Shown here: positions 3,001 through 64,000 of the stretch, one piece after another
Layout of the letters: every line of letters begins with the position of its first letter
Numbering within the stretch: the stretch's first letter is position 1
The notes under the pieces: generated by a model
Told to the model about the DNA's origin: nothing
The model's input: the letters and a program-made list of their open reading frames with translations, nothing else
Databases searched by the model: none
Assembly: GCA_031213475.1 (NCBI GenBank)
Contig: JARUPZ010000035.1
Span: 1,559,199-1,623,198, forward strand
Reading direction: 5' to 3'
DNA: 64,000 nucleotides
From: Nereocystis luetkeana
Taxonomy: Eukaryota > Sar > Phaeophyceae > Laminariales > Laminariaceae
Position numbers and translations under genes: made by a program

Positions 3001-6000
3001 AGAAATAAGTGTGGACAGGGGTTTCCCCTCGCTCTCCGGGGCGCAAAAAAATAAAAATGATTTTGTTCAGCCAACAAAATTGAGCGAAACCTTCGAAAAA
3101 CATAACCGGCAATCTATGCGGCTGTGATGTTATTTTATGTCATACCAGTATACGTTACTTTTAGATATTTTAGCAGACTGCACGTTGTAGCATACCTTGT
3201 ACCTGGTACCTATTGATATGTATCTCTGCTGGCCTTTGCTGGTTTCCATTTAGTTTTTCTGGATGGAAACGTCAAATTAAAAAACAAACTACACAGATAT
3301 CATAGCCCGCTAGTGGTGGCAACCAACCTGCAAGCACCTGAATAGTAGCCTAAAATGTACTGCCGATCGAACAAAGTGAGCCGATTCCAACAGCAACAGC
3401 AAAACAAGTAGCTAAACATTCCAAGGAAAGAGAAACACCACTAAGCACCGGCCCTCCTACTGATTGCATCTAGCAGGTGGTACTTTCGCGCTAATTTTAG
3501 GACACTACACCGCGTTCCTCCAACATTCGCGCTGGCACGATAATTTCTTAAGGGCAGACGTCCTCCACTTCTCTTGCCACACCCCAAACGTATACGGAGG
3601 TACACGAGAAGCTCGACGTTCTTGCTGCTCGTGGAATTTCTCGCGGGCACTAACCACGACAAGCCCCGCGATAGAAAACGTGCGCTCGGATTTAGCGCTT
3701 GCGACGCTGGAAGGGCAAGCACACGACGAGCCAGTCCGCTGACCCCTCGGCGCTCATTGGGTGCTACTGACGTGCGTGTGCTTGCTGTCTGCTGCTACGA
3801 GTACTGCTGTTGGAGGACGCTGCGTGTGATGCAGGACGTCGAGACGAGGTGCATATCCCCTGTTTCCCTGCTATGTACGCCTTCCTACTCTGCAGGAACC
3901 CCATACCCTAAAATATCGGCTCGGCTTCCCGATGTAAAGTATATATCGGATCGTCCGATATATCGAAAAACATCGGTATCGATACACAGCCCTACTGGTC
4001 ATACTTCGAAGTATGATATTATCGTATCAGCACGCGTGTCCAAAAAAAACCCGGGGAACTTCGAAAAAAACGGAGCGATGTTTACGTACGTACCTGGTAT
4101 ATATACCCAAGAAGCGTAAGAGCCCACACCTGAACACAAAATATGTGCGCTCGCCTCATTCGGCCATTCGACCTTCCAACAACGCTATTCAGAACTCGTC
4201 TCAAATGAGCAGCACCGACCTTGAACTGGTCGACGAGGGCGATGAATGAGGGCAGGTGGTCGTCAGTGCAGGTAGGCGTGAACGCTCCGGGGACGCCGCA
4301 GATCACAACCTTCTTGCCAGCGAAGATGTCCGCCACGGAGTGGTCCTATTTTGGAGCAGGAAAAGGAAAAAGAAGGAACAGGGAAGGAAACAAGGAAAGC
4401 AGAGGAACAGCCCGGTGTTCAAAGGGGAGGAGGCGGGGAGGGGGAGGGGGGGGGCTTCGTGGTTCGCTTTCTCGGTCGTCGATGAGCTTTTCGAGATACT
4501 CATGTTGGATACGAGTACTCGTGCCAGGTACCAGGTATTAGATACTTCGCATCATAGATAGGACCGACAAGTATTCAAGCACCCGGCACACAGCGAGGGA
4601 GCGATACAGAGAAATAATCACGCCGCAGCATCACGCACGTACCCGAAACAGCAGCAGCAGCAGTGTGGGTGGCAGACGATAACCCCACAACAACTCTTGG
4701 TATTATACTATTTGTGTACAAGTTAAGCACTCGTACTGTCTTGCCTTCGTCCCGGGCGAAAATTAAAAAAAAAAAAAAAAAATTGATGTAATAGCAGCAC
4801 ACACAAGCTGTTGGGAGGGAGGTGTCGCCAATTTGTCCGACCGAGAAAAAGTACCTGCTGAACCGAACCTCCCCTCTTTCCTCATCATGCCATTTCGTCA
4901 TCTACGAGTTTCGTCAAGTGTATCACCTGCACTCGTGCAGACCGAGCGACGCCATTCGCCCCCTGCCCCCCCCACCCCCCCCCCCCCTTCCCCCTGCCTA
5001 TAAAAAAAAAAACGTTCACGTATCGGACACATCAACATATAGATCAGATCCCCACTCTAGATCAGAGTCCCACCTAACGATCTACGTACCTAAGATATGT
5101 CAGTTCGCGGCGGATATGTACATCCCTGACCTGTATGTATGATGTGGCTTGTGCCTCCGGGTGTGAGCCGTATATACAGTCTGCATAAAAACCACCTGAA
5201 CCCCCTTGGTTTGGATCGGATCTGAACTACAGCAGCAGTATATTATATCATAATATTGATTGTGCTCAAGTTATTGATTGTGCTCAAGAACACGACGGAG
5301 ATGTTCCATCCAACATTAGGGAGTTCCATTCATTCATGTGGGATTATAAGAGCGGGAGATTTACGGTGGATATTCTGCGGGACAAACGGGAGATTTATTG
5401 AGCCGGCAACGTGGTGGATAATCGCGTGCATGCTTCGCCATCGGCTGTCACTCGACAGCTCGGATATAAAATATACAAGAGGAGTTCCGTGTTGTTGTCT
5501 GGATGGAGTCAACCACGCGTTCTCGTGCCAGCTGCGTCTATACCCTTGGAGATCAATCAACACACACACGGATCCTGCACAACAGATCCAAACGGCAGAT
5601 CAACATACTACATTTTACTCGAAAGCCTAGATCCTGATCATGACGGCAGATCGAAATCTGTATCATCTAGATCGTGATCTGTCCATATCATCTAGATCGT
5701 GATCTGTCTATATCATCTAGATCTGTCTATATCATCTAGATCGTGATCTGTCTATATCATCTAGATCGTGATCTGTCTATATCATCTAGATCGTGATCTG
5801 TCTGTATTGCGTGTGCGAAAGCATCGCAAGCAGGCAGCAAACACTCACGGCCGGTCCGCCCTCCCCGAGGATCTGGAAAGAGGTGCCCTCAGGCAGCTTG
5901 TCACCCTCCTTGAGCACCATTGCCAATCTGTCCCAACGCAACACAGCAGGCGGGAGCGGGGGGGGGGGGGGGGGGGGGGGGAGGGGGTGAAATGCAAACC

Positions 6001-9000
6001 GACAGAAAAACGCGCCGTCCGAGTGGTTGAGGAAAAAGAAGAAGATTTTTTTGGACCGAAAATTGAAGCGAATATCGTAAGAAAAACAAATGTGAAGAAC
6101 AAAACCAAGACAATATTTGAGTGACCCCTTCGTGTATCATACAAAAACGCATGTTCTGTCGTCCTCAAGCCGTCCGTCCCTATCGGTTTTTCCGTCCATA
6201 TTTTTTTTTAACGTTTTGCCGAGTCTTACAAGACACATGCTCCCGGGGGGAGACGCTACTGCGGTACGCTTCGAGTACACGCAGAGTTGCACGGGTTTTT
6301 TTTTTCTGGATCCGTCTCGCCTTTATTTTAGTATTGGGGGATTGTAAGCCGACACAATCGATCTCAAACCCTGTTAATGCAGTGACTGCTGTCTCTACAA
6401 TAAAAAAAAACACGGAATGCCAGCAGGGTCTTTTGTTAATGCCAGATTCTGCCAACATTTGCGATCGGGAGGTAAATGCACACCAAGGAAGAAAAACGTA
6501 CGCGAATCACTGCCGTGGCGACCCAGCTTGGATCCTCGTATTGTGAGGGTTGGCCGTGCGGTATGGAACGAGATGCCTTCCTTTCCGCCATGATCCCACC
6601 TACAACGCCCAGGGCTCATTTCCAAATAGTGTCGTAGAGGAGTCGCACAGAAGATCACGTACCGCTGTAGATATGATATGTACCAGATATCTGGTACCAG
6701 GTATGTACTACACAATTTTCTTTTTTCGGGATCACGGCTGACTTGAATTCTCGGGGGTGTCGTGACCTGAAGAGGGACAACCCAAGAACACAGGCAGGCT
6801 TTCGTTCCTCGTGCAGTATCAACTACAGTATACACTCAAACTTGTACTTGAACGTCGCCAACGGGTAAAAACGAAGAAAGCTCTTGAAAAAGATCTTGCG
6901 AGAGCTCAAGAAAAAAATATACAGCCGCCGGGCAAGTAACACCGACCAGCCCAAACGAGTTTCTTCTATATAGATACAGCAGGAGTTCTTTATACCAGCT
7001 GCTTTATACGAGTACCGCTTTCCGGCAAGATTACTTACTCTTCTTTTCTTCGTATACTCCGTATACCTGGTATCATCATTTTTTTTTCTTCTTTTTTTTG
7101 CTCATCCCATCCATTATCTTCGCACATCTTCTTCTCTCTCTCCTTCCCACTCGTAACTCAGATCCGGGGTCACATAGCAGGCTCTTCTCCCCACTTCCCG
7201 CTACGGTACGTGCCTTCATTTTTATCGCGAGAAGATTTCAGCCTTTTCTTCCCTCGTCGACTCGCATCGAATTGTGCCTACCACCAGGTATTAACTAGTT
7301 TCAGTTATTAATATCAGGTACACCTGGTATACTCGTACAGCCAGTACAACGAACGAAACACAGTAGAAGTTGATTTTACTCGTGTACTAAATGACAAGAA
7401 AAAAACAGCAGGCACAATCGTCGGCTCGGAAAAACACGTGTGTAGGCGTTCTCGTACATATCTCCGGTCCGGGGTTCATCGTCATCATCGGTCTTGGCCT
7501 TCTTGCAGACCCTTTGTTCACTGGCGGACATGATACAGAGACTCTACGATTCTCTCGGGGTGGAAGTGGCCCTGGTAGAGTCTGCAGTGCTCCTGGCTAT
7601 ATAGAGGTGGGTACCTATGTAGACGGAAAATACAAAAAATCGAAAGAAAATACAACAACAAAAATCAAAAACCGGATAACGAGGCGTTATTCTCGAAAGA
7701 AAAAAACGTGATCTCTTTACGAGTCGAAAATCGGGAAACGAGGTGTTATTTTGGCAAGAAAAAAACGGTCTACCAGGTATCATAGGTACTACAAGTGTTC
7801 ACTGCTCGTTGTCCCGGCCGCGAAAGAAAACTTCCTGCCGAAGTGAATCACCATCCCAGTTCCCGCCGATAAAACGCCCCAAGAAACTATTTCCTGTTGG
7901 GTTATCGGCACCTACCTATGATGTTATACACCCTCCCTTCTCGTCCATGAAATACGTTGTCTGCGGTGAGACTGTCGCCGTAAACTATAAAAGTCAAGGG
8001 TACCTGGCCCAGTTTTCGGGACTCGAGTCAACGAGTCGACAGAGTACCCATCCATTGAGAAGGACCCAGTCCTCAAGAGAGCCTGGGGGCCTAAACGACT
8101 CGAGACCCGCCAGTCCAGTCACCAGAATGCCTGCAGAGGGCCTAAAGTGACTCTCGAGTCCGGTCTGTCCCCACAGCAGTACCCTAGGGCTGAAAGGGCT
8201 TGAGCCCCGCCAGTCCACAGGGTGCCCGGGGGTGTGAAAAGATCGAGTCCTGCCAGTACCCAAGGTGGAAGGGGGCCTGAAAGGACTTGAGTCTGGCCAG
8301 TCCCAAGGGTACGAGAAGCCGATGTGACTGGCACCCGCAGGAGTGCAGGAGTGCATACTATGAGGGGCTATGCATACTATTAATATCATCTGGTCCCTTC
8401 CCGTCAAGCGAAAACAGATTTTTCGCGGGTAATCACCATCCCGTTCCGTCAAGAAACCAATCAAATATACTGGTAAATGTTTCTGATGTGCCCACCGGAA
8501 ATTGCCAGCTGCAGTGACTCGCCAACCACATTACTTTCCGAGCTCGGATGAAATCTTTCACGATCTTGGTAGACTTTCTACCGCTGCTCTCTGCTCTGCT
8601 ACATACAACACCTGGTGGTATTTACCAGGGTATCATTTATTTCCAGAGTTCGGGCGGAAATGATGAATAATGGGAGGGTGGGGTTGCTATTGTTTACCAG
8701 TACTTATTTCTTATCTGAATTCGGGGAGATGAAAAAGTTGTCGATGCCCGCCCGGCCTTGCACGCACTGCTCTGCTCTGCGTGATGCGAGGCACCACCGA
8801 CAGTAGTACGGTATGGTTGTAGGATAGATCTTTGTAATAAGTCCGTGCTCCGAACCGCGTGCCCGTTTTCTGGCACTGATGACGTGATTTCATGCCACTT
8901 TTGAACGAAAATGTAAGGACCGTTTGATAATAATACTAGTGCCTAAACGGTGCTTATATTTGAGTTCATCGTATTGTATCATGTACCAGGTACAATTATC

Positions 9001-12000: not shown

Positions 12001-15000
12001 AACCAACGATTGCGTCATGAATTCTGAACGGAGGGCGCTCGTTAGGGGCTCCGACCCACTCTAGGGTCACCGTCTTCACACCATGGCCGGTGTCATGTGG
12101 CGGGAGCTGACCAGGCGTGTGATAAAAAAACATTGGGCCGCTGGTTTGCACAAAACAGAAGACAAAACTTCTCCATCCGTCTCGAATGGCAAAAAATAGA
12201 CTTTTTTTCAGGTTTGGGAGGATACCGTAGGACGCCGCCGGCAAGCTCTCGCCCCCTAGACCATGGATCCACCTGATATACTCGAGGCTGTCATCTATAC
12301 TCGTTGGGCTTGCCAGATACCGAGTGGGTTGGCCGCGGGCTGAGTCTATGTCGAGATCGAGCGTCGATCGTCGCACGAGCTGGTTTCGATCACCGTGTTG
12401 ACAATTTGCGACCAGAAAAACACAAATTGCGCCGCCTGCAGCCGTTGGGGGAAAAAAAAGAAAAAAACAAACTTTTTTCTCTTTTTTTCCCACAGCGGCG
12501 GTACGAGAATTTTTTCGGCTGTTTTTTTAAAGCGATATATTTGAAAAAAAACTTTTGAACTTCGCGTTTCCATTGGCATAGGTCTTAGGAACTTTTTTTT
12601 TTTCCTAGGTGGCCCATAGGAAAGCGTGTTCTGATTTTCTTTGGCGGGTATCTTTGAAATTCAAAGTTTTTATTGCAACTTCGCTGTACCATTGGCATAG
12701 GTCTTAGGACTCAACCTGCTGTTATTTGCGAAAAACGAAAGTCTGTTCGTTTTATTTCGTTTTTTTTTTCGTTTATTTGGCCCTCGATAAGACCGGCCCT
12801 CAGGGGCAGAGGAAAAAAAATGAAATCCCCCCCCGCGTGTTTGATTGGAAGGTACCTGGTACAGCAGTACTTATTAGGTACGTACTCGTACGTCAAAATA
12901 CCCAAAACTGTACCATTGAATACCTGGTACTGCTGCTGTATGTGTGTGTGTGTTTTTCACATTGAGTGAAGAATACCAGGTACACTGAAATATTACCAAT
13001 AGAAATACGTACCAGGTACCTGGTAGAAACTCGTATCAGTATGAGCTAGTCGGTGTTGCTTGCCCCGTGACTATGCACATGTATGATACGAGTCTGCGAG
13101 TACTTCTTTTGTTTTTTTGTATTACAAGCAGTAGACATACCGCATCACCGATACCACCTCAACCACCACCATCACGGCCACCGGCAGAGCTCATGCTCCT
13201 TTGACTCGCGCGGTGCACTTCCTCGCGGGGAAAGCACCACCGACACAGACGGCCACGAGGCGAGCTCCGTTTGCCCTTTGCTTGGGGGGACGAGAGCAAG
13301 GTCACGCCAGTTTTTGATGTGGTTTTCGAGTGCCCTCTTTATCATCACAGAAACTAATTACCAGGCAGGCAAGTATTTTTCCAACTAAAAAAGGCACGTT
13401 AGCTGTGAGTTCACCCGATCGGTCGATACTCGACTTTGCAAAATGCGTGATAACCATGAGCGCGATTTACCACTGGTGAAAAAAAAAACCTGTATATATT
13501 CACCGAAAAAACTCTACTTCGAGCGATGTTTCTGAGTTTCTGATACAGGATACACTTGTCCCGACCGCCACCTTTAGAGCGAGAGTCGGCTTGCCGTGGC
13601 AGTGGAGCGCGCGACTCGTACTCGTCGTGGATCACAGGGAGCAGAGAGAGCTCTACAGAGCTTGCATTGCGGGGACTCCAGGACACAAAAGCAGACACTT
13701 TGTACTACTACTGCTGTCATGTACCAGGTACCTGATACCTTGTACTCGTATTGTTTTTGGTTTTCGTGCCTGGTACGTACCAAAGGTGGTATGTACCAGA
13801 GGTATGGGCGCTTCGTATGTAGAGCTTGAGTTGTGGGGACTCTACGGCACAAATCACGCGATACATCAAGCGCGCATATGGGGAAAGGGCACGAGTATAA
13901 CTACTGCTGTGTTGTACGTGCTCTATACACGTGGATATGGCTATTGCACGAGTACGAGTACATCAGGGGGGGGGTAGCGACTTCGGAGAGTACTGCACAA
14001 CCGGAGATATTATTGGACAAAAGGCCGGCTTGAAGGCATATTATCGGTTCCAGGTACATGCATGTACTATTAATACTACTATGGGCGTTGTCCTCATCAC
14101 TCACCGAGATGCGCTGTGGATCGAGCGTACGCCAACCGCCTGTGGGACCGGGAGTGGGTTGTACAGTAGTGCGAGACGAGACCAGGCAAGATAGGACGCG
14201 AGCAAGCCGCAGGAAGGAGCGGAGGGACGGACGAACAGAAGACGGAATGATGTGGAGGGGGGGGGTTGGAGATAGTTGGAGACAGACCACAGGACTACGC
14301 AAAGCAAGAAAGAAGCACGACGAAAACACGCCGCAGTTTACCATCTCCCATCTCCCATGTCCTACATATCTGTACATATTGAGTGACGCGCAGTGTACTT
14401 TCGACGAAAACCACACAGCAGTAGTAGTAGTAGTATTATAGTGTTGTAGTTAGTTGTTTTACCGTGTCGTGGGTTGATGGTTGATAAATTTGATGACGCA
14501 GGCAACGAACGGGCCAGGCGTATTATATGTCTAGGCACAAGAGACAAGGCATGCACCATGCAAGCTGCAGCTCGGGTAATTGGTTGCAAACATACCGTGC
14601 AGGTTAGCTTTGACCCACGACGGGGTATGACGCTAACAAAAATGGAAATTACCGTCATCATTCCATAGTGCGTATTATGTACCCACCATGCACCTGGTAA
14701 CAAATAATACTGCTGTACGTAGAATATTTTTTTCCACTCTGGCTGGTACAAGTATATACCTTAAAATAGACGCCAAACTTGGGATTTTCTATTATTATTA
14801 TTACCTGCACACGATCTACGATTCGATTCACAAAATCAGCGCCTACGTAGTACCAACGTACCACGTACTATATTATTAATACGTATCAGGTATCACGTAC
14901 GAAGAACTGGAAGAACTGCAGACCGTAGATTCCTACTGGTCGATATACGTGCGCAAAAAATTTTTAAGGAACATGCCGTTGTGTCGTGTTGTCGTTGCTT

Positions 15001-16288: not shown

Positions 16289-19200
16289 GTGAGCTGTGTG
16301 AACTACTCGTACTGACTGGTGTCAGCTCGGTCAGCTTTCTTGTTTTTCGTTGGTTTTCGGTATATCTGCGAGTTATCAGCGCGCTGTGAGAATCACGTAA
16401 GCTTTTAAAACACGGAACGTCTGAGGGCTGCGACATGCTACGTCACCTCTGGCTAGACTACCGTCGGTCGACATTGAGCAGAGCTGCTGGTGGGGTTCAG
16501 TTGTGGTCGTTTGACGGATCACAAAACCACAGAGTACCAGGTACGTATCGCCACAAGATGCCCCGCGTTTTGAAAAGGACCTTTTGACAACGAGGAAGCA
16601 CCAAAAAACAGAAAAAAGGTAAAGTTGAGTATCAACTATGCAATCAGTCGAACTCCCAGCTGACGTCTTTCATAATTTTATTAAAAAGAAAGGTTCAGCA
16701 ATAAACAGAGCACCGATGATGGGTGCGCGGGCGGAAACACAGCAATAAACAGTGGAGTGATTCTTATCAGACACGGACGGCACAATGGTGAAGAACGTGC
16801 CTTTTGCTGCCAACTAAAGAGGCTAAAAGTCACGAGGCGGGTGCAAAAAGTACCCCGTCGAAAGGAAAGAGGTTGCGGCCTTTTTTCCCCATTCCCCCAG
16901 TCTGTCAGTTGAGAAAACAGAGAGAGAAAGCGGCCAACGAATTTGATCTCCTCGCCGGTGTATTCGAAAGAAGAAATCATCGCGACAGCCGTCGACGTAA
17001 AACGAACTCACTGAAGGTTTTTCAGCGGATCGCCCTGGATCATCTGAAATAGAAACACCACCAGGTCTCCGGAGGGGACAACAGAGACACACTACAGTGT
17101 ACCCTACGTTCAAAGCGGGGGTTTTGCACGAAGAGGTTTGGGTGTGTAAGTAACGTTCGATGTATATTTCTAGGCCGAAGAAAATCAACTGTAAGCTTAT
17201 TTGCATGATTCTCCTGTTCACTTTTCACGGTCAAAAGCAGTCTGGAAACATTAATTGGGGGGCATATACTGTGCTTCAGACTTGAAAAGGGCTGCGGGCA
17301 GCATGTCCTCTTACGGCGTGTATCCTACGTGCGAACCGAGTCTTTTTTTGGCATGATACGGTACCATACACAGGCAAGTTAATGCATATCTCTGGAAGAA
17401 CCCCATGCCTGCCATGCTCGATCTGGTGATGGGCTTGAGTTGGCGATACAAACTCCCCCGAGACCTACGTAATGTTCTGCACTACGTAGGCTTGCACTAC
17501 ATAGGCTTTCGCTGCAGGTAGAAACCAGTGATGACTTTGTGGCGGGTGCGTGGTGTCTTCCTCCCAAGTCCTCCCATCGCATGGGGTTCCTCAATAGAGT
17601 TTCCTGCGTTGCCTCCTCAGGTATCTCTTTCGCGCTTTGATCAAGGGCGTCATGTATTAGCTATTATCGGTTGCCGTGGTTCATCGCAAGCGATGCGAGT
17701 CTCCCCATGTAGCCGCATGTTGTGTGTTTTCTCGCGGTGAAGACAAGTTGCAGGTAGGTACTTTGTCAAAGAGGGGGTTATGCACAACTACAGTATGGCG
17801 TGTAGCATAGATTTGTAGGGGGACAAAGTACGGCTACGAGTAAAGGTGTAGAAAGCACGGGGTATACATGTTCTGGGCATATTTTTTTTCAGTATGGAGT
17901 GCTTATGGTTGGCTTCACGATAACATTTTGTTGACGCCGGGGAACGGGGGATTATACAGGCTGCCTGAGGCAGCTCCCTGGTGTTTTGCCGGCCTTCCAG
18001 GGCAACACAGCAATACCCGGAGATTGCTTTCCAGCACTCGACACAAGGTAGTACCGCGGGAACCATATACATACGCGTAATGTGTATTTTGGGTACACGA
18101 CCACCCCCCCCAGCGTACATATCTTTCAAGATTGTATACACACGATTTAAGTCTCGTATTAGGCATCTTAGTCTCGTTATGACGAGGTGCTGGGCAAGCC
18201 TGCAGCAGCCTCTCCTTGAGTAGGTAGCTTCATAGGGCTGAGCTTTCGAAAGCACTTGCCGAACTTCGAAGAGACGCAGTAGTATTTTCTGAGTCATCAA
18301 CATCTTAGTTGATTTTTTTTTTCTCGGTCGGTGTTTGTTCCCCCTCATCAACGACTGATCAACATCGAACGTAGTGCGGGAGGCAATAAATATATAGATG
18401 AAAGGTGTTTCACGCGACGGGTTTGCAGTACGAGGCCTTCGAGCAAGAAAGAGCCGACTGTAACAAGAAAATGGCGCTCACTTCTTAGGCTACGCTAAGA
18501 CTATTGTATTGAGATATCGTTTTCAGCGGCGAGCGCTGCACTAAACCCTACTGACATGTGATAACCTATACCAGGTAGGCACACTTCGATGCGAGTCGAC
18601 GAGGGAAGAAAAGGCTGAAATCTTCTCGCGATAAAAATGAAGGCACGTACCGTAGCGGGAAGGGGGGAGAAGAGCCTGCTATGTGACCCCGGATCTGAGT
18701 TACGAGTTGGAAGGAGAAAGGATAAGATGTGCGAAGATAATGAATGGGATGAGAAACAAAAACAAACTACAACCTATACCAGGTATGTTCAAGGCTGTTC
18801 AAGGGTGTGGTGTCACAATAAGGTTCTAAATTTTGCTCACATGGGGTGCCCCTTGTTGGTGGGCCCATGCTGTGGCTCACCAGGTACTACTGCTGTAGTC
18901 CCTTCAAACGAGTAAAATTCTATTCACGTGAATATAGCGACCGTTGGGGTATCAAATTGAATGTAGTGACGGTCCTTATATTTCCGTATCGAGTTGTATG
19001 TACCTTGGGGACTCCAACAACAACTGTAGAAAGTTACTTGTAACCAACAAACAAGGAACACGCACATGTATGTACACTATGAAACCTCCTCCACCACTAT
19101 TAATATTACGGAGGGCCATACTCGTAGTAAACAGGGACTATGGTACAGACAAAAACCCATATATTTCCCAATTTTTATTAACAATATTTGGTCCCAATTT

Positions 19201-19780: not shown

Positions 19781-22700
19781 AACAACAACAACTACAACAA
19801 CAACAACAACAGTAACATCAACAAGCAGGAGTAGTTACACCCCCCCCCCCCCCCCCCCTCGATTTGTTTGCCCTTGTCCAATTGGTGTGCGAAGCCGGCC
19901 CAGGAAACTACAAAACGGGGAACGAGTTCGAGCTGCTGTCGGAGTCACCAAGCAGGAGAGGTGAGGGTTTAAGGTGTTGCAGTGAGAAAAATGATATCAC
20001 CACGATAGAGCACACCGTCAGCACGGCATCCTTCTCCACTTAGCAATTGCCAGCGGTTATCAGGCACAAAGTTAGTAGAGCAGGACTGAGACTAAAGGGA
20101 GTGCTACCCTGGATTGCAACCCTTGGGTATATCCGAGGTCCGGGCTTAAACTTCAGAGCCTGACGGACCCCAATTTGCGGCTTTTTTGTTCGAGGCACAC
20201 CGTAACCACTGAGCTGGCAGTCGGCTCTGGCTGCTAGCTCGGTGAGTGTGGTGTGTCTCTACTCGTAGCAAGGACTTGTTTCGATTGTCCACGGTCGTGA
20301 CCGTGTATGAGCGGTACGCGTGGGATGGGGTCGGGCGATCCGAGCGTGCGGCACGATAGATGGAGTGACGATGAGTGACGCCGTACAGAGGGAGGGTCGT
20401 CTCGCAAGCGCGCTTTTGCTTGTCGACAAAGCTTGACCGTTCCTCCGGAAGGAAGAAGTCTTCGTGCTTCTTTCTCAAACGCGCAATAGTTGAGCTCGAG
20501 GTCTCAGCTGGGTGCGAATAACAATAGTTAAGACCATCGATGCGGGTGTAAAAACTGCATGTCGCCTTCCTGGCATTGGAACTCTCGACGGTGCAAACGT
20601 GCACTCGCATCATTGTGAGCAGGATGCGCTATTAATAATTGTCAACTCGGAGAAGAGCAAACACGTTGTCACAGAAGCACAACATGTCACAGGAATATAA
20701 CATCATGTCACAATATACAGCCGCCTGGGGCACAGTATGGGGCCCTGCCACATTCGTTATACGCACGTGATCGCCTGAATCTAACAGCTTGGAAAAACTA
20801 TGAAGTGGCTAAGGAAGGAAGCGAGACTGGTACAATAGGCTTCCTTCTCCCGGTTGTGCTCTGGTTTTCTTGTTCTTTCTGGAGCTGTTGGTGATCGTCT
20901 TTTACGAGTGAACGACGTTGCAATTTCTGCTGCACATTGTGACGCACTGCTGTCAGGTGGCCAACAAGCGTGATATTTCGTATCACATTAATAGTGAGGT
21001 TCATTCTGTCCCGAAATATAGGCACCATTTACATACTGGTACTAATACGCAAAAAACATTTTTTTGGCACGACCGCAAGGGAAAACAGAATAAATCCAGG
21101 CCCTTGTTTTTTTCTTTCCTCGTCAATGGCGACAGTTATAACATTCGGCACGGCCGCAAGGGAAAGCATGAGCCTCATGACGGCCTCACCAGGAGTTCTA
21201 TACAACGTGGACGGCGTGTTCCGAAACGGTCCGGTGAAAGGGAAGATCCTCCCGGGGTTTAACCTGGACACGCGGAAGCCGCTGGCGGAAAACTTGAAGT
21301 CCAAGACCACCGCCATATATTCGCCCAAGCTGGCGACCAAGGTGCCACCTCTGAGACGAAACGGTTCGATCTTGGAGCGGTTTTTGGTTGGTGACTTGCC
21401 GGAGTTCGAGTGTTGCTGTTCGCTGTCGAACCAACCACATGAACTCTGAGACCCATACATATCTAGTTGATGTGCCGTTACAACGAACGCGTACGGGTGT
21501 AGTGGGTACCGGTCTGACCAGAAAGAGAAGGTACATTTCGAGATTTTTGTTGCCATCTGAACGTCCCTTTTATTCACGATCAGACTGGTACCGGTCTCTT
21601 AGTTTGGATGCCTATCGGACAAAAGCAATGTACGTACGAGGTAGCACCTTTTATTTTTGATGATACCAGTAGGGGGGGGGTATTAGGCTATTATTTTCAC
21701 TGACGGGCTTAGGACCCTTGATTGGGTGACTCTTTACTTCACGTTGAAACATACTTGACGAAAATGAGGCACGCGAGCTCGAAGCGCGAACCTTTCTACA
21801 TACCAGGTAGTGGTTTTCCAAGGGGAAAAAAAGCCTCTTCATAGCGTGATCATACAATACTAATATGATTTGTGTGACCAGACAAGAAATCCATGGCAGA
21901 AATCGAAAAGCGTAAAGACCAGTAGTGTAGCCGCCCGCGCATTGACTGCAAGAGGATCTGAGCTGCTGAAAAACAAGGCCCTAAAAATGATTGACTCCCT
22001 TGGTCACCTCTGAGAATTACGCGGTTTTTCTGTTCGATTTTTGGTTGGTGCCAACGGATTTCGAGTAACACTAGTCGCCTGTCAACGGAGTTCGGCTAGT
22101 ACTAGTCACCTACGAGTGCCAGCTAGGCTTAATGTAAAGGGATCAGGTCGGGACACTTCCTATCCCTTGTCCCATGTACCACAAATACGATCCCAGTACC
22201 AATTACCAGGTAATTCCCGGCCTTTCTGCGGTCATTCACATCACGACCATTACTCGAACCCTTTACCACGACGCCTACGTTTGGGGAGAACCCATTTGGA
22301 ATTGTTGGAGTTGAAGAGGCTTTTTCAGTAAGGGAAAGGCTTGATTGAACCCCTCTGCCGGACGTTCGGCGGGTCTGTATGTTATGCGTAACCTGCGAAA
22401 AGTCTGATGGGTTCATAGGTTATGGCCTGAAAGTTCCCGTGGGTTCTGCGTATTTTTTTTTAAACATGCACCGTGCTCGCTTCTCCGTGAGCCAGTGTGT
22501 CACACAGAAATGATTTTGGTGCATATCTAAGTTAGCCTATACCTGGTGCAGTATAAACCTCTTATTTTCGCTTGCTACAGTAGTCATATTTAGCAGTGCC
22601 GAAAAAGCGGCGGCAGATAAAACGGCCATGCGGAAAGCTTTCAGCCGAATCAACGTGCAGTCGCTTTGAGTAAGACGCGCCCGGCCCCGTCATCATGGCT

Positions 22701-25762: not shown

Positions 25763-26332
25763 CCCTTCTCAGCTGAAAACCCAGTCCCCTTTTAAGAATG
25801 GAAACCGAACACGTACAGTACCGGTACCTGGTGCCAGGTACCTGGTAGTTACAACCCACGGAGGCGTTTTGATACACCGTATTACTGTAGTTTTGATGGG
25901 ATGGGGAGCACTGAAAGCGGCGAACTACACGCCCGTGAGAGAGAGTTTCTAATTCAAATCGGGGGGGGGGGGGGGGGGGGTCTTTTTCTTCACGATTTTG
26001 GGAGTAGAGTCGATGGTCGTGAGGCGGGCGAACTGCTGGCAGTCCTTCAGTTGAATGTGGATGGTCGGTGTTGTACTGGCTTGCTGTTTATACATATGCA
26101 CGAAGTACGTATGCTAACAATATATCCTGCATGTGGCTACGTGTAAGCCCTAATAATTGACCGACTCTTCACTTCTGAGTTCAGAACGATGCAGTTCAAG
26201 GCCAGATATTAATAGTACAGACCCCTCATGTGACGGGTGGGGGGTGGCGGGTGGGTGTCAAAAGTAGGAGTGGGGGCGGGAGGGGTCCTATCGGTCGGGG
26301 GGTTGTTTGATAGTAGTATGCCTGGGTATAGG

Positions 26333-30092: not shown

Positions 30093-30322
30093 GTTCGATT
30101 CGGATTTGTATTATTATTATGCTTGCCATCCGACAATGTGTAGTGTTGTTCTAATAAACGACTATAATAACAGAAAGTGAAAATTGTGTTGTATACAGGC
30201 AGTGCTGCACTCCTACTGCGTACCTGGTATATATCTAATGTATTCGTATACGAAAAGTTCTCGAAACGGGTAAATTGCAAAACACGTACCAGGTACCTGG
30301 TACGTACGTAAATAAGAATGTA

Positions 30323-30750
30323 TCTGGGTGCAACAGGACAACGCGCCTTCCCACAACATCATCGACGACCCTGACATCGTGGCGGCTGGTACGGAGGGTG
30401 GGTGGAACATCAGGCTCCGCAACCAGCCGGCCAACAGCCCCGACACCAACATCCTGGACTTGGGGTTTTTCAACTCCATCCAGTCCCTCCAAGACCGGAC
30501 AACGCTGAACACGGTGGATGAGCTCGTGGAGGAGGTGAAGCGGGTGTTCGCCGCGCAGGATGCCGAAACCCTTGACAGGGTGTGGACGACCTACCAGTCC
30601 GTCCTCGAGCAAATCATGCTCGCGAGAGGTGACAACACCTTTAAGACGCCCCACCTCAAGAAGCAGACGAACGCCCGTCGTCGTACGTCGATCGCGCGAG
30701 CCTTACCTGTTAGCCAGGAGGCGTGGGATGCCGCTCACCGGGAGAGCTAA
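30323..30750 (+). pseudogene. Mariner transposase, 5'-truncated C-terminal fragment
   Basis: Reads VWVQQDNAPSH (second catalytic Asp), NSPDTNILDLGFFNSIQSLQ (third Asp) and a C-terminus SQEAWDAAHRES with stop TAA at 30748. Protein residues match the minus-strand copy at 31223-31615 without a difference I can see; I noted one silent base change (CGA/CGT). The first catalytic Asp and the DNA-binding domain are absent, so it cannot be active. It keeps the native C-terminus that the longer copy has lost. Confidence 0.9.
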
Positions 30751-30751
30751 G

Positions 30752-30790
30752 GGAGGGGGGGTGGGGGGGGGGGGTGGGGGGGGGGGCGCG
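30752..30790. repeat. Poly(G) tract
   Basis: Almost unbroken G with a few T/A, starting immediately after the transposase fragment's stop. Confidence 0.95.
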
Positions 30791-30959
30791 TTTCGGACTC
30801 TTTTCTGGTTTGGTGCCAAGTGGTTTTTACCACTGTGTGGTGTTGTGTTCGGTGGGTATACGAGTGCTGTAGATGGTTTCCCTGCTGCTGTACGGGTGTT
30901 GGTGTCGCGACGCGCGCCTTCATTGCGTTCGCGGGGAGTGTGGTGGGACGTGTCGCCGG

Positions 30960-31159
30960 TGACGCGCGAAGTTAATAAAAAAAAAAAAAAAAAAAAAACG
31001 CCTCATGGCCAAATTTTATGGGAAAAGTGAAAAAAGCGGGGATGGTATCCAGGCATCCCCTGGCCACCCTAGCGATTTTTATGAACTCCCCCCGCCTCAA
31101 AATGCATACTGAAACGTTTTCATGCTTGTAATTGTGCTCTACACACTAATTTCGACTGT
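30960..31159. other. Spacer with poly(A) run between the transposase copies
   Basis: A run of about 22 A at 30977-30998, then unassigned sequence. It is the loop between the inverted transposase copies. Confidence 0.7.
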
Positions 31160-32735: not shown

Positions 32736-32929
32736 TATGTTTCTCTGTTTCGTCGAAACATTCTTGCACGCGATAATTTCAACGGAAGAAGTACGAGTGA
32801 GTGCTGCCTGCACAAAGCCAAAAGGTCTGCGCAGCTTGGTGATCAACTGGCTCTAAGCCTTGAGGAGAAGATACGCGTTATCGGACAGACAGAAACGGCG
32901 GGAAAGCAGCAAGTACACGTAGCTTATTG

Positions 32930-45400: not shown

Positions 45401-48400
45401 GACTAAGGCAAGCAACAAATGAGTACGCCCCCCCCCCCCCCCCTCCCCCTCTCCCGCAGGATTAAGAGATGTATCCTAATGAATGTGATAGTAGCGAAGC
45501 TAGAATATGCGTGAGATGTATGGGAAGGGAACGCGAAGTTCGTAAAACTGTTGGAAACAGTACAGATGACAGCAGCTACAAAAATACTAAGATGCTCAAG
45601 TACGACTAGTAATACAGTATTAAGAGCAGAACTGGGAATGCACCCACTCAAGACAAATCGAAACATGAGAAAGTTGACATGGCAATATAAAGTAAAAAAC
45701 ATGCCAAAAAAGGGGTTGCCAGCCATAGTTGATGGAGCTGTATGGGAGGAAGTAACAAAAGGGCGATCTGGAATAAGGTGTTCTAGCGTAGTTGAGAAAG
45801 CATGGAAGACTATCGGAGGAAACCAAGAAGAGGTGATGTCCGCCGGGAAGTTTGGGGAGTACAAGGCAGCAGTAGAAGAAAGGATAAAAATAAGGGAAAG
45901 GCTAGCGCTAAGAAACAAGGTGAAATCGGAGAAACTAAGAGATGTACGGAAGGAACAAAAATGGAAACGTATTTGTACGGCCCAATAGAACTCGCGAAAA
46001 TGCTGAAACTGCGCTTTCGCGTAGGTGATCTGGACCTGCCAGAAAGAAGAAAGAGGTAACTGCACCAGTAGCCGGGAGGAGGAGGAAATAGATGCACAGA
46101 TGTGCCCGTGTGGCAAAGCACCAAATAAAGAGTAGAACTCGCATATTATTATAGGAGAATGTGAAATATACAAGGAGGAACGAGAGGTGTTGGAAGAGGA
46201 GATGAGGGAAATAGATGAATGCGGCATGGAGGAGTTTGGTACACTAGCTAGCGGCGAGAAAACGATCACCATCTCAAGAGATAGGTGGTGGCCACAGGCG
46301 GCCCAACAGGAGGGGGATAAGTTAAGCAAAAAAAAACTATGGAATATATGGAAAGAACGTAATAAGCGCCCAATTGTTGGACGTGTATCTATTAGGAGTA
46401 GGAACGGTGCTCCGTCTCGAAAGGGATGCGTGGTCAATGGTCAAATGACAAAGGCAAGCGACAAATGAGTACGCCCCCCCCGCCCCCTCCCCCCTTCCGG
46501 TTAGTAGTTCGAAGGGGTAGAGAGAAGTACTATACGGACGACCATAGTAAATAGGACCAAATATTGGTATTACGGGGGACCATAGTTAATAGGAGCTGTG
46601 GTATACATAAAAACCTATATATTTAACCGTTTCTACTAACAATATGTGGTCCTATTAACTATGGTCCCCCGTAATAGTAAAAATAGCGAAATATACATTT
46701 TTTTTGTGTACCGTAGGTCCTACCAGGTATTTATTATGGTCCCCCGTGATATTAATAGTAGAGTATCACCGTAAGCTGTAAATAGGAACCACCCACAGCC
46801 AACGAAGTGTTCGTTCGGCGCAAAATTCGAGAAAGGAAGCAAAGCTGTGGCGGAGGCGAACTAAGTTGCATCAGAAAAAGGGAAGAGTGTAGTGGTTCAG
46901 GAGGATTGCAGCGAGAGTTCACTAAGGGAGAAGAAGTAAATAGGTGTGTACGTAGCTACTCTGTAAACTTGAGAATGGAAAGGCAGGAGGGGCAGACCAT
47001 GTAGGGAATGAATGTATGAAGTACGGGGGAGACGGAAAGCTTGCTTGCCATGATGGTCGTGTTGTATACCTGGCTATGGAAAAACGAGTGCTCACCTACT
47101 GTACCGGGTACTAGGTAGGATGTGGAGAAAAGGAGCGGTAGAGAGAACTTATTTAAGAAAGGAGATAAGAGGCTGACCCGGGGAACTGTAGAGGGGTGTA
47201 GAGGGATAACGCTGTCGAGCACAGTAGTAGGCAACACATTTTGTGAGATTTTGAAGGATAGAATGGGAACAATGATGGGAGAAGGGAGACAAAGTAGGCG
47301 AAGGACAAGCAGGGTTCAGGCCAGACCGTGGCTGCGTAGACCATGTGTACACGTTAGGTACGATAATCCAAGGTACCAGGTAGGCAAGACGCGGGATTTA
47401 GAACGTAATGTTTCTCTCTTGGTATACAGAAGGCCTACGACCAGTGTGGAGAAATGGATTGTGGAAAAAGCTGTGGGAAATAGGGATCAGAGGGGAAATG
47501 TGGAGAATGGTGAATAATGCGACGGGATTTGCGAGAAGTGCTGTGAAGCTGGACGGGGAAATATAACTGGTATCATATGCCGATATATCACGAGGAGTTG
47601 CACAGGGATGTACGTTGTCATCTACTCTGTTCAAGACATGTGTATTAGCGACCTGATAGTAGCAGTCGAAGCAGCAAAGCAGGGAGTCACGGTGGAGGAA
47701 GATGCGGTGTCGGGATTGATGTTTGCGGATGGCTTCGTGGGGATATCAGAAACACCCGGAGGATTGCAGAAACAAATAGAGAAGACGCTAGAAAACACTG
47801 GGAAATGGAGGGTGACGGCGAACGTCAAGAAGTGCGCAGTAGTTGTCTGTAACAAATGCGGTGAACCCGGTAAATTTCGGTTGGAAGTGGGGAGAAGATG
47901 AATTGCCGATCGTAGACCAGTATACGTACCTTGGCGTGGAGATATTGAAAGACTGCTCTTGGGATGCACACACGGCAAAAGTAGTAGGGAAGGGTGAAGC
48001 ACACGTGGGTTAGATGGTTGCGTTCCTAACAGACTCGCACCTGGACACTAGGATCAAGAGATGCATCCTGATGAGTGTGGTAGTACCAAAGCTAGAATAT
48101 GCAGGAGAAGTATGGGAAGGAAACTCGAAGTTCGTAAAACCGTTGGAAACAGTACAGATGACAGTAGCTAAGAAAATACTAAGATGCTCAAGTACGACTA
48201 GTAATACAGTATTAAGAGCAGAACTGGGAATGTACCCACTCAAGACTAATCGAGACATGAGAACGTTGAAATGGCAACATAAAATAAGGAACATGCATCA
48301 AGCAAGGGACATGAAAAATGAGGTTGCCAGCCATGGTTGATGGGAGCTGTATGGGAGAAAATAACCACAGGGCGACCTGCAACGAGGTGGGATAGCGTAG

Positions 48401-54959: not shown

Positions 54960-56190
54960 GTCGCGAGTCGACAGTCAATTAACCCATCGGTGTATATACT
55001 GCCTGTGGTCTTGAAACAAAACAAATAACAGGTACCTCTTACGGACTGTCCGTGGTACATGACGGATTATATGTACGAGTATACGTACACTAGTAGTATG
55101 TACCATTGAGTCTTCCCTTGCTGTGTTCTACTGCTGTGTATGTAGCTCTTCTACGTCAACGAGCGGCGGCAGCTAGCTGCTCCAGCAACAATATGGCACG
55201 TGCTATGCACGATTATACCTACAGTACCATTAGTTGTTATCCTGCTGTGGCATGCTCTCTAGCTCTTCTCCGTTCACGAGCGGCGGCAGCTGCATCCAAC
55301 AACAGCCAACACCCGTGAGCTACTATTATACTACTAAAGGGTTGACCTAAAATGGCGGTAGTTACTAGTAGCTGCACCGACAACAGCAAGAACAACAGCT
55401 TCCGACAGCTAACGTCAAGGCATTAGACTAGGTCCCTGAGCTGCTACTTACTACAACTAACTGGTCAAAGGTTCAACCAATATCCCACCCAGAGGACAGG
55501 GTAAGGTATAAGGCTACCGCACTACTGCACAGGCATGGCTTCCGTACAACCCTCTTCTTCCCCCCCCTTGACAAAATAGTTCGCTGATCATTCTGTAGCT
55601 GGGTGCATAGTCTGACAATGAGTACCACCACCCCCAATTGGGAAACTCGTACGTACCCACCCACCCACCCGCCACCGTCATACATACAAATATTCCGCCT
55701 TTTTTTTCTGTTCCCTCCGCTTCTTTCTTTTCTTTTCTGTTTTTTGTTGTTGTTGTTATTTTCGCTTTCCTGAAAGAAAAAACAAGAGACGATGTTGATG
55801 CCCCCCACTAATTCATCTGTTTTTTTTTTTCTTCTCATTTTTGGCTTTCGGAAGAAACAAGACACACACCACGCAACAACGAACGAACGAACAAACGAAC
55901 GGCGATTCGCAAATCGAAAATACCCACCCCCCGTAAAAAAAGTACCGGCGTACGTCGAGGGTAAAAAAACACGTAAAAACGACAAGTACAACGAAGACAA
56001 CCAACCAACCAACCAACCAACCAACAAGCCCCCCCATCGCGACCACCACCACCAGGCATCGTGATCCCTTTGACGGACATCGTAACTTCGTAAAACCTAC
56101 CAGGTATAGACTAATGCATGGGGTCGGTCGTGCAAGAGCAGTATAGAACCTCGAAATACATGATATAACATGAATACCCCTCCCCCCCCC
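54960..56190. other. No gene recognised
   Basis: Partly AT-rich, with CCAACCAACC (56000-56025) and a loose duplication of AGCTCTTCT(A/C)CGT(C/T)(A/C)ACGAG (55146 and 55261). TACCAGGTA at 56098. Confidence 0.6.
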
Positions 56191-59149: not shown

Positions 59150-60245
59150 CTCGCGCGCCCCCCCCCCCCACCAGGAAAAGAGACAAGACGAACGAGCAAC
59201 ATTAGAATACATTCGGGGGAGCGACGGCACGGGTTTCATTTTTTATAGGAAATCCATTTCTTAGAGTACCACACGACCTGCCATTTCCGTATTCCTTTTC
59301 TCTTCAACAGCGGGCTGACTCGCCCCCCGCCCCTCCCCCCCTCCCCGTTCCTTTCCCCTTAGGCTAATACGAACAACAAATTACCAATGCATCCCGACTC
59401 TTTCCCCCCGCCCCCCCGTCCCCCCCCCCCCTCCCCCCGCCCCCCTGGCCATTCAGCAAGGAGATGCGAAGAGAAAACGACGGACACACCCGGCCCGCAG
59501 ACCAGTCAGAAGTAGTGTCGATCTCTGTTTTACCAGGTATTGTGTGATATGACTGCCATATATATCTCGAGAGTCGTTACAGACCGATCTGTGTATGCCA
59601 AGGTACACTATCAATATTAACAGCAGTGTACGGTACCATATATATGCATGCGTGGATACCCTTCTATCATAAGAGTGCGAGGTAGTCACGTACAACAGCA
59701 GCAGCAGCAGCAGCAGTAGCTGTAGTATTATCTATCTCGCATTGTGGATGGTTGGTTGCGAGTTGCGAGTTGAGGCGCCCCCTCACACGACATCCCTCCT
59801 AGACATGCCAACTGCAGGATTGCAGGTCCATGTATGTGTGTGTGTGTTCTTCCGATCAATCTACCTGTCGACATCCAGGACAACCATAGCAGTGTCCGTC
59901 CCCATTCTTCAATCCTAGACACAACAAGCTCTGCGGTCACGAAATCACGAGGAGACACACTGAATCCAAGCAGAGCACATACATACATGCCGTATCGTTG
60001 GGCTGGGCTACGACGACAGACACCGCACATGGATACATGGATACTATCGGCAACACGCCTTGCGTTCCGAAACCCTTCGTTTTTCGCAAACAAGAGATCA
60101 GATCTTACATTACACCCTCCTTCGTGCGTGCATAAATATGTCGCTATTGATAGCTATCGGTTGATGTTTTGCCCTGTTTTCTGAGTGGGATCCAGCATCA
60201 CAAACATGAGCACAACCTCGGGCTACGCATCAGCGTGACTCGCGT
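59150..60245. other. No gene recognised
   Basis: C-rich blocks at 59320-59450. The remainder lacks repeats I know, apart from TACCAGGTA at 59531. Confidence 0.55.
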
Positions 60246-60283: not shown

Positions 60284-60499
60284 CAACGGCACAGCAGTCA
60301 GAGCGTGGACAGCTGAGTTGGCAGCAGAGCGTTGAGTTGAACAACAAACAATCTACGTGGCTTTCACAAGTTATGTTGATCCGTAGGATATATATGGTGA
60401 AATAATATCTGGTACCAGGTATATTACCACGGGTAATGCCTGGGGGGTCCCTCTATCCATCCATACATGATCCATGAAATTTTAGACCTACCTGATACG

Positions 60500-60848: not shown

Positions 60849-61139
60849 TGATACGCGGCGCAGCAACAAGCTGCAGTCCGCTTAAAAAAGCAGTACCCTG
60901 GTACCTGGTACAGCAGCAGTATTATTATTATTATTATTATTTCTCTTGCCATCCGACAATGTGCAGCATGATCTTCCACATGGATCACTCATAACTTTCC
61001 CGAAAGAAGATTATCGTATCAGTGGCCGACAATCGCGTTGGACCAGTTTTAGTTTCTATATTTTCGGAATATCATACCTGGTATACCAGGTACTTCGTAC
61101 GAGTACTCCTTGGCGGGCTCCTGTAAAATATCTGGTACA

Positions 61140-61237: not shown

Positions 61238-61667
61238 GAGTAGTCACGGAAACCATTACCGATGATGATGCTGCTGCTTGGGGGGGGTACCACTACTACA
61301 GTATACTGCTGTTTTTGCTGTGCCCGCGTTTTGTCCCCCAAAAGGCGAGGAAGGAAGCGCCAAATCAAAAAGCAAATCACATACATACCAGGTACCATTA
61401 TTAATTGTCATACGTGATCACACACGATCACAGATTCTGATCTCCACGGCATTCATTGCATCTCTGCTCTGTCTGCTGGCTGTATCATACCGCCGACCCA
61501 CCCGTGATTCAGACCGGTATTATTTCCAACCGGCATTTATTTGGTACGACTTTACAGAATCGTTTTTTTTTTTCACGTGACGTGTATATATATAGTGCAG
61601 GCATCAAGCACTCTTTATCGCAGTCATTCGTACTCCTCGTAAAATTACTTTTTTCGGCGACGCACTA

Positions 61668-61932: not shown

Positions 61933-62756
61933 CTGCGTGTGTGTGCGTGCGTGCGTGCGGGGGGGGGGGGGGGGGGGGCAGCAAGTGAAAACAAGGAAAA
62001 TTACCCATTTTATAGCCGCCGGTGACGAGTGAGTGCATGGTGTAATGCTGGTGTTTTGATATTTTCGTACGTAGTGGTATACTGCTGTTTTGACGCATGA
62101 CTTCTTGCTGTATACCAGCTGTTGTTGTTGTTCTCACACCAGTATACTGCTGTTACTGTAGGTCCTCTTCGGTCGCTTGTTCGTATACAGAAGAAGCAAT
62201 ACGAAGTACTGGTAGTATATATTATCATGAAACCAAAAAGTGAAAAACTGCAACCAGAGTACCAAGGTGGTACCAGGTATGTTAGTTAGCAGTTTGCAAC
62301 GGCACACCGGACAGCGGCAAGCACAGTATATACTGGTATATAACAAGCAAAAGTTGGTGGCGGTGGTGGTGGTGGTGGTGGTGGCGGTGTTGATGGTAGT
62401 GCCGCTGCGGCATCATCGCGTGTAGGGCAACGGCCACAAACATAAATAAATAAGCAGAGAGAGCTACAACAGTCAGTAGTAGTAGTAGCTGCTACTATTA
62501 ATACAACTGTTATTGATAGTTACTACAACAGGAGTAGCAGTCCGTACAAGAAGACAGACAGACGGAAGCTTCGAAGGATTTGGGGGAACAATGAAATGGC
62601 ATTCTTTGTTACCTACCTGGTACCTACGTATACTGCAGTAGTAACTTATCCTGCAGCTGCTGCTGCTATAACCGTGCACGACTCGCATCGATCGCCGCCA
62701 CTCACAACAATGGAGATCAGCACTCCCACCAGGACGAGCCAGCCATCCACCGCCAT
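61810..62756 (-). CDS. Small single-pass membrane protein with cysteine cluster (57 aa)
   Basis: Two exons: 62756-62706 and 61932-61810. The ATG at 62756 has a G at -3 and +4. Exon 1 encodes MAVDGWLVLVGVLISIV and ends at GTGAGT, phase 0. Exon 2 (acceptor CACGCAG, phase 0) continues VLCLIWSSLSHHCVKCCPCC to a TAA at 61810. Joined, the hydrophobic run spans residues 6-23 without a break, followed at once by CVKCCPCCC and then an acidic/polar tail. Such clusters beside a membrane helix are often palmitoylated. A GTAAGC just before the stop could be another donor. No family recognised. Confidence 0.48.
61956..61978. repeat. GTGC repeat and poly(G) run
   Basis: GTGTGCGTGC repeats followed by about 20 G, just upstream of the exon 2 acceptor of the minus-strand gene, where it forms a C-rich tract. 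Confidence 0.92.
62706..62756 (-). CDS. Membrane peptide exon 1
   Basis: 17 codons ending ATT GTT before GTGAGT; most of the hydrophobic helix. Confidence 0.48.
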
Positions 62757-64000
62757 CCCGCGCTCTATTGTTGCCGTCCTGAATTCCGATCGCCAGTAAG
62801 GTAGTACAGCAGTCAGTGGTATCGTTTCCTCGGGAATTCCGCGAGCAACAACAACGACAACAACTCAGCAACTAACAGCAAATCGGTGGAGGTAGCATGT
62901 ATGTATGTAGGGCGCTCAACAGGTCCCGGTTGTCTCGCGGTCTGATTGGCTTCTTGTTGTCACTCGACAGCAGCAGCAGCAGCAGCAGCAAGCAGCAAGC
63001 AGCCACACGGTACCACCGTAGCAGCACCTGGTCCAGTTAGTTGCGAAGATAGAAGAAGTCGAAGTAGTGTTGAATGGTACAGAGGAGGGAGGAGAAGAAG
63101 AAGAAGGCGAGAAGAGCTACGAACTAACTGCTGTAGATGGGTGGAGAGAGCGTGGTTGGCTGTGTTTGGGTCTCGGTCTGTGATCATTTATGATGGCCAT
63201 GGGTGGGTGTACGTGTGAGCAAGTTACTGTCATTATCAATGGAAAGTGCCAGTTCAAGGCGCTCTACCGCAACGAAAACAACAATAATATTTGTATACCT
63301 GGTATATGACAACAACGATACTGCAACAACAAATCAAAATGCTTCTTGGATCCATATGCGTGTGTACAACTGCAGTATTTAATACGTACCAGGTATTAAT
63401 AGTAGTAAGTGATAGTCTGGCTGGTACATAACGGAAAGGCTTTATAATTCCAAGTTTATCTGGCTCCCACGACGTTCTGATCGGCGCGGAATGTTCTGTT
63501 TGTCTTGCATCCGCGAAATTTTGGAGCCGGAGCCCGCCGGAGATAAATAATTTTCCGTGGGTGTCCAGAGTCCAAAGTCCATAGTCCACCTGCCACAGCA
63601 GCAGTCCACACACACAGAATCCGGGATCCAAAATCCAGAATCCACAGAATTTCAGATTCATCCAGGATCCAGAACACGCAACGACAACAACGAACGTATC
63701 TGTACCAACAAAAAAAACAAAAAAAGAAAACCACTACTATTATAACAAACCGCTGTATATACCACCACCACTCCACGACGACCATCACCACTACCACACA
63801 CCACACTACCGCCACCATCACCACCACCACCACCACACCACCAACCACCAGCAACAACGACAGAAAGAACAACATCGAACAACGCTCATCGTAGTAATTC
63901 CTTGTGTTGGTACTTCCTACTGCGTGCTGTAATAATATTATACCTCCTTCCTGGTATATCTTCACTTGTTGTATAGTATTATATACCCTGGTACCAGGTG
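62757..64000. other. Right end: microsatellites, no gene recognised
   Basis: CAG run at 62970-62992, CCA-rich tract 63770-63850, short tandem ATCC-AGAATCC-type repeats near 63620-63670. TACCAGGTA at 63296 and 63387. Confidence 0.6.

Follow-up and report, generated by a model that had tools for sequence, protein, structure and literature searches.

Within a stretch of 64,000 nucleotides from the brown alga Nereocystis luetkeana (GenBank assembly GCA_031213475.1, contig JARUPZ010000035.1, positions 1,559,199 to 1,623,198 of the forward strand; in the following called the window), the nine-letter word TACCWGGTA (W being A or T) recurs again and again, and the question arises which process places the same seven bases, CCWGGTA, after a TA at so many sites. 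Very probably, TACCWGGTA is the repaired donor site (footprint, or scar) that remains after excision of a Tc1/mariner-type transposon with the ends TA/CCAG...CTGG/TA, produced by the steps of cutting and joining proposed below; we infer this excision-footprint origin from the traces in one genome and not from watching excision. Most of the scars would have been made by a candidate source family whose ends read CCAGTCYGACA.

Concerning abundance, the window contains the word 47 times (26 TACCAGGTA, 21 TACCTGGTA), spanning positions 3200 to 63395, the number that the first-pass annotation had given as a minimum. Among the strand-merged 9-mers of the window it ranks fifth, after poly-C, poly-A and two words of CAA repeats. 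Genome-wide (465 Mb, 1,987 contigs), it is found 182,395 times versus 1,744 for the reversed word as control, i.e., about one scar per 2.5 kb and about 100 times the control, instead of the count near expectation against which the first-pass annotation had proposed to check its claim. Unplaced contigs, probably redundant assembly, are included, such that these counts are slightly inflated; the small unplaced contigs L035-L040 (L numbers denote fetched loci) match the chromosome loci L031 and L033 at 100% over 600-1200 bp. In a set of 264 kb, consisting of the window and 20 stretches of 10 kb each, chosen at round coordinates outside it, TACCWGGTA occurs 123 times, the 15 other words XY-CCWGG-Y'X', in which only the flanking dinucleotide is changed, 0-3 times each, and 30 letter shuffles of TACCAGGTA 1.1 times on average and 6 times at most. 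The 20 stretches alone hold 76 sites in 200 kb (3.8 per 10 kb), about half the density of the window (7.3 per 10 kb). The motif has sharp bounds, with one spacing and a centre of A or T: the centre base of TACCNGGTA (n=131 in the 264 kb) is T in 63, A in 60, G in 6 and C in 2 cases, and other TACC-GGTA spacings (0 and 2-7 bases) give 4-18 matches each in the same set.

Paralogous repeat copies within the one genome served, in place of strains, for the comparison of empty and filled sites. For 15 of 147 sites another copy spanning the junction was found, and at 13 of these 15 the majority lacks the 7 bp, L011_975 and L015_7520 being ambiguous; the 147 sites include those of L001-L008, which were fetched by a footprint-bearing pattern and supply 6 of the 15 comparable sites. 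The sharpest pair is formed by L003 and L024, which are 98% identical, the sole difference being exactly CCAGGTA. Three sites of the window are situated in copies of MITE-1 (MITE, miniature inverted-repeat transposable element), where word count was combined with copy comparison. At 45000..45008 (TACCAGGTA, in a tandem unit), the one neighbouring unit is empty and 99% identical; at 41215..41223 (TACCTGGTA), 40 of 42 other copies are without indel; and at 46721..46729 (TACCAGGTA, assigned by copy comparison), the same holds for 35 of 39. These are the cases from which the first-pass annotation had concluded that CC(A/T)GGTA was added after a TA, and they hold, sister copies being largely empty; the addition itself is borne out by the L003/L024 pair and the 13 of 15 comparable sites. 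The alternative that the seven bases are ancestral and were then lost did not turn up, as comparable sister copies mostly show gain; in the repeat copies CCWGGTA was gained after a TA and not lost from other copies.

A gapped search at one TA of MITE-1 gave 294 copies in which 3-30 bases are inserted, versus 0 in the control. Among the first 100 of these listed, CCWGGTA accounts for 42 (22 with T, 20 with A). The six-base classes CCAGGGTA (CCAGGG), CCCTGGTA (CCCTGG) and CCATGGTA (CCATGG) are found 7, 2 and 1 times, the shorter classes CCGGTA, CCAGTA and CTGGTA 3, 2 and 1 times; CTAGGTA is found 3 times, all within 113 kb on one contig and perhaps from a single event, and duplicated flank, e.g., TTTACTA, likewise 3 times, and compound scars occur as well.

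Elements with matching tips exist. The ends of the candidate source family start with CCAGTCYGACA, finish with TGTCRGACTGG and stand beside TA. The pattern TACCAGTCYGACA is present genome-wide at 84 ends versus 8 in the control, and 32 of the 84 form, by position and counted by eye, 16 facing pairs. Thirteen fetched pairs (L048-L060) are 530-670 bp long with the tips TA/CCAG...CTGG/TA, which are imposed by the pattern; eight of these short copies are mutually 92.9-98.1% identical, and L051 and L060 share 99.8%. Their inverted repeats are perfect for 11-15 bp, the first 11 bp being the pattern itself, and at least 85% identical over 15-38 bp. Furthermore, L045, located through its protein and not through the end pattern, is an element of 2,016 bp with an inverted repeat of 16/16, which is flanked by TA at either end and carries a transposase frame without stops; terminal inverted repeats of the Tc1/mariner kind are found in the 13 short copies as well as in L045. 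A search with the element end of the window led to 22 places, or 10 distinct ends after removal of duplicate contigs, with the canonical TA/CCAGTC in four and an altered tip in six; six loci fetched by the transposase gene alone exhibit 10 recognisable ends, five of them canonical. Elements beginning with CCWGG were also considered as a source, and none was found in about 290 kb, neither by extension of TACCWGG nor among TA-flanked inverted repeats. An excess of scar density near element ends was discarded, several of the loci concerned being duplicate contigs.

One repeat site is found in several states. At the MITE-1 arm site TTAAATA/GGACC, the 7 bp are absent in the window at 39827-39925 and 43896-43995, the footprint alone is present in L004 and at 46721 of the window, and L052 contains a full element followed by a footprint; the flank of L052 without its scar is matched by 45 junction-spanning alignments, such that its empty form is known. 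In L060, a full element without scar is situated in a MITE-1 copy lacking its middle, and the empty form is supported over 40-44 bp by two BLAST hits, two further, misaligned hits having been set aside. Compared with the empty MITE-1 forms, both L052 and L060 exhibit insertion at TA with duplication of the TA, as in Tc1/mariner elements; for the 13 paired copies, the adjoining TA was prescribed by the search pattern and provides no independent test of this duplication.

Footprints and source-family elements also have a common target preference, namely for a second TA at 7 bp. A TA exactly 7 bp outward is found at 78 of 246 footprint sides, compared with 7.1% of the 31,614 sides at all TAs, and at 54 of 222 (p 9e-16) after 24 sides with a scar or near-scar as neighbour were taken out by hand from the side listing. 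For element sides the numbers are 6/20 (p 0.002) in the first set and 14/27 (p 7e-10, one repeated side dropped) in the short copies, pooled 20/47 (p 1.5e-11), with no significant difference between footprint and element sides (Fisher test, p 0.18 for all and p 0.052 for the second set). Compared with other TAs, A or G more often precedes the TA, T or C more often comes after it, and T is enriched three bases outward. The word TACCGGTA likewise prefers a TA at 7 bp (8/30 sides); this preference is lacking in the other TA scars counted, i.e., the CGAG class (9/152), CAGCAG (6/66) and CAG (13/146 sides).

Tandem double scars number 15,917 genome-wide versus 2 in the control, an estimated 13-fold excess over the roughly 1,200 expected from random placement (based on 15,833 TAs in the 264 kb), and 2 of the 13 complete short copies (L051, L052) are inserted at a TA that belongs to a scar. 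For contig C1, 59 doubles on the plus strand are listed, and their centres, counted by hand, are equal in 40, A-T in 14 and T-A in 5; that A-T is commoner than T-A agrees with the enrichment of T three bases outward. As a scar has the form TA-N5-TA, which is the favoured target, it would attract insertions better than the site from which it arose, and it is rather probable that the element baits its own sites, with scars drawing new insertions and becoming doubles and triples.

The proposed excision chemistry is as follows. The transposase would insert the element at TA, duplicating it and favouring sites with a second TA 7 bp off. On excision, the staying strand would be cut four bases inside each end, leaving a 3' overhang CCAG on each flank; these overhangs would pair via CAG/CTG with one A.A mismatch, and gap filling, mismatch repair and end joining would then yield TA-CCWGG-TA. 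CCWGG would result when three bases pair (C:G, A.A, G:C), CCAGGG, CCCTGG or CCATGG when two bases pair, and CCGG, CCAG or CTGG when the overhangs are trimmed. Every product predicted in this way occurs among the first 100 of the 294 insertions at the MITE-1 site, and by sequence comparison CCWGG and several minor products fit the ends CCAG...CTGG, i.e., the footprint consists of tips as in Tc1/mariner. A self-pairing five-base overhang, CCAGG, was the first guess and was dropped for CCAG after the element ends had been seen.

Other ways of making the same excision scar are conceivable, namely a three-base CCA overhang in which a single overlapping base is mismatched, or a two-base CC/GG overhang to which one untemplated A is added ahead of joining. 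Both are variants of, and compatible with, the proposed excision, both likewise yield CCWGG with A = T, and passages of PMC7827188 give overhangs of three bases for Sleeping Beauty and mariner. They are nevertheless doubtful: CCAGGG and CCCTGG, which need the fourth base of the end, make up 9 of the 10 six-base scars among the first 100 insertions at the MITE-1 site, and random base addition predicts other centres, whereas G and C together amount to only 8 of 131. Still less likely, and equally compatible with the excision of a Tc1/mariner-type element, is an origin of most scars from older and wider CCA-ended, Stowaway-like MITEs with the tips CCACTCTGNCC..AAATATA, moved by related transposases, the CCAGTCYGACA family being the youngest branch. 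Diverged inverted pairs of such ends do occur beside TA (window 43199/43388, L002 2143/2231, L008 1905/1987), and one-mismatch variants, about 80 above control versus 123 intact words in the 264 kb (position 5 counted once), suggest an old average scar age. CCAC ends, however, should give CCACGG and CCGTGG, which are seen once each among the six-base scars, versus 4 CCAGGG and 5 CCCTGG, and the products at the MITE-1 site follow the CCAG pattern. MITE-2 (ends CCACTCTG), formerly a candidate for the main source, was demoted to this rival. Short elements of this diverged kind, adjoining TA and with ends resembling CCACTCTGNCC..AAATATA, are situated at 43199-43390 and 21507-21590 of the window, at 2143-2231 of L002 and at 1905-1987 of L008, and recall plant Stowaway MITEs.

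That a unit of about 7 bp inserts itself at TA, or that tips are inserted abortively without a prior element, is highly improbable. In its favour are the exactness and site-specificity of the insertion and the vast excess of scars over recognisable ends, but full elements with these tips and an equal target preference exist, one site is found in several states, and the minor products at the MITE-1 site fit imperfect joining of CCAG ends. Given elements with the required tips, the mobile unit of seven bases of which the first-pass annotation spoke is not needed, whereas its simplest reading, the footprint left by excision of an element that targets TA, is supported by the family with matching tips and by the site states. 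Slippage in simple repeats, a motif bound by a protein or an artefact of the assembly can hardly be credited at all: tandem 7-mers (15,917) and the excess of equal-centre doubles (40 of the 59 listed) might speak for them, but in the 264 kb the word has 123 sites and each word in which just the flanking dinucleotide is altered has 0-3, the insertions are at TA in repeats with mostly empty other copies, and the target preference is symmetric.

Several points weigh against an origin from excision of the CCAGTCYGACA family. The ratio of footprints to exact canonical ends is about 2,000 : 1, such that frequent jumping at low copy number, or the loss of most copies, must be assumed, and the canonical tip is present in only 9 of the 20 ends of the first element set. 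Among the 100 listed MITE-1-site insertions, 58 are not CCWGGTA, some of these being flank duplications or scars of another kind, and where several copies have inherited one and the same scar they do not count as independent. The centre TACCCCGGTA (3 of 18 six-base centres in the 264 kb) does not fit the overhang model, and an inner cut at three or two bases is also possible. Two of the 14 short-copy sides owe their TA at 7 bp to a neighbouring footprint (L051, L052), and the share of equal-centre doubles among those listed is above the half expected from independent events. Concerning the transposase, the HTH_Tnp_Tc3_2 profile scores 26.1 bits, under its curated cut-off of 31.5, and the DDE_3 profile matches nothing in the whole genome.

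The window itself contains two resident elements of the candidate source family. In element A, the putative transposase gene (31223..32494, minus strand; 424 aa), recognised as an open reading frame with motifs, is cut at its C-terminal end by element B. By end comparison, the 5' end of A is situated at 32702..32737 (minus strand) and reads TA/CCTGGAGTCTGACATTAAATATAGGCTCGTTTCG, an altered tip compared with the canonical CCAGTC; the upstream end beyond the transposase gene reads TA/CCTGGAGTCTGACATT. The partial element B (30322..31223, plus strand), assigned by sequence, consists of the C-terminal portion of another transposase copy (30322-30711) together with a 3' end, the tip of which, TA/CCAAGTCTGACATT (minus strand), is located at a TA within the transposase gene of element A. 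By motif, the putative catalytic residues are D178, D300 and D340, with a D300-D340 spacing corresponding to DD39D; D340 we take to be the third residue from the motifs NPIE and APSD. The motifs VDEKWF (with one F/Y change), QQDNAP and SPDTNILD are conserved in six transposase copies. Across the genome the transposase is matched 104 times, in many cases by fragments, and its DUF7769 match is above the cut-off of that profile; a PDB sequence search gave nothing credible (best E 0.26). On contig C29, at about 3.89-5.05 Mb, diverged transposase-like fragments follow one another at intervals of about 80-90 kb, a pattern reminiscent of a large array, tandem or segmental.

Odd tips on resident ends, e.g., CCWGG fused to AGTC, are found in L034, in L042 and at 32737 of the window; our guess is that they are ends damaged in failed excision, which left stuck copies. 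Furthermore, source-family copies are truncated at, or within about 20 bp of, TACCWGGTA in L030 (about 233), L031 (about 421) and L041 (about 696), these positions being read inward from the element end; the truncations look as though deletions had begun at excision breaks.

The remaining footprints of the window are word matches with unassigned strand, as are the three MITE-1 sites given above. TACCAGGTA is found at 4529..4537, 6695..6703, 7771..7779, 8984..8992, 12974..12982, 13722..13730, 16535..16543, 18569..18577, 18777..18785, 21801..21809, 22204..22212, 38225..38233, 41786..41794, 47374..47382, 56098..56106, 59531..59539, 60413..60421, 61084..61092 (abutting the footprint at 61075..61083), 61386..61394, 62271..62279 and 63387..63395. 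TACCTGGTA is found at 3200..3208, 4091..4099, 7064..7072, 12853..12861, 12921..12929, 24114..24122, 25839..25847, 30221..30229, 36702..36710, 36735..36743, 36981..36989, 38190..38198, 43405..43413, 60902..60910, 61075..61083, 62614..62622 and 63296..63304. Double footprints of the form TACCAGGTACCTGGTA are situated at 13010..13025 (sites 13010 and 13017), 30287..30302 (30287 and 30294) and 41765..41780 (41765 and 41772).

Excision scars are usually met singly, in assays or at single genes. A genome with about 180,000 scars and few recognisable intact elements is an unusually dense fossil record of jumps; in the parts of the literature searched, no published description of such a genome-wide scar record was found. 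From one such genome, statistics can be drawn on the products of joining, the choice of targets, repeated visits and the decay of scars, and it can readily be tested whether the target that an element prefers is restored by its own excision scar. The 84 exact canonical ends versus 182,395 scars suggest that copy number may badly understate transposon activity. If the self-baiting is true, a low-copy family would cycle through the genome and be recorded by its scars rather than by its copies.

Other insertions of the form TA-tip-TA are also present in MITE-1 copies: TACGAGTA, TACTTCGTA, TACTGTA, TACAGTA and TACGTA (window 19101-19220 and 2504-2623; L017 2890-3010; L007 1378-1493), and TACAGCAGTA is over-represented (35 versus 4.1 expected, both strands). 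Judged from their letters, they suggest scars of further families, one of them Minos-like. Minos leaves a 4-base footprint; the present scars resemble it in having the TA-tip-TA form with more than three bases, and the TACGAGTA scar is also found in one MITE-1 copy here, whereas the tip of the source family is another one and the TACGAGTA scar class lacks the preference for a TA at 7 bp (9/152 sides).

Similarity to plant mariner-like and Stowaway elements (Osmar type) consists in the DD39D signature, assigned by motif, and in short non-coding copies with equal tips. Stowaway MITEs carry the tip CTCCCTCC, from which CCAGTCYGACA differs, such that likeness does not extend to the tip. According to passages of PMC4054914, DD39D mariner-like elements occur in plants, and in passages of PMC1925063 and PMC4561436 the footprints of the plant system are described as consisting of element tips, those of Stowaway and Osmar5 as varied tip fragments of 1-4 bp (PMC1925063). 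In the present genome, by contrast, one footprint product dominates. With its insertion at TA, its inverted repeats and a footprint made of tips, the family would belong to the Tc1/mariner group, the transposase class being suggested by motif, with weak support from Pfam.

The footprint of Sleeping Beauty is reportedly TAC(A/T)GTA, arising from CAG overhangs that pair with an A.A mismatch. The candidate family shares with Sleeping Beauty/Tc1, as far as treated in the relevant passages of PMC7827188, the TA target and, in the proposed chemistry, would share the staggered inner nick, the 3' overhang derived from the tip and footprints identical to the overhang. It differs from Sleeping Beauty in one more base per end (CCAG in the proposed chemistry), in a footprint of 5 bases and in the very many footprints preserved; for Tc1/mariner in general, passages of PMC7913693 state footprints of 2-4 bp. 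The chemistry would thus be of the familiar Tc1/mariner kind plus one extra C, and what is new beyond the known kinds is the length of five bases, the scale, and a scar that recreates the favoured TA-N5-TA target.

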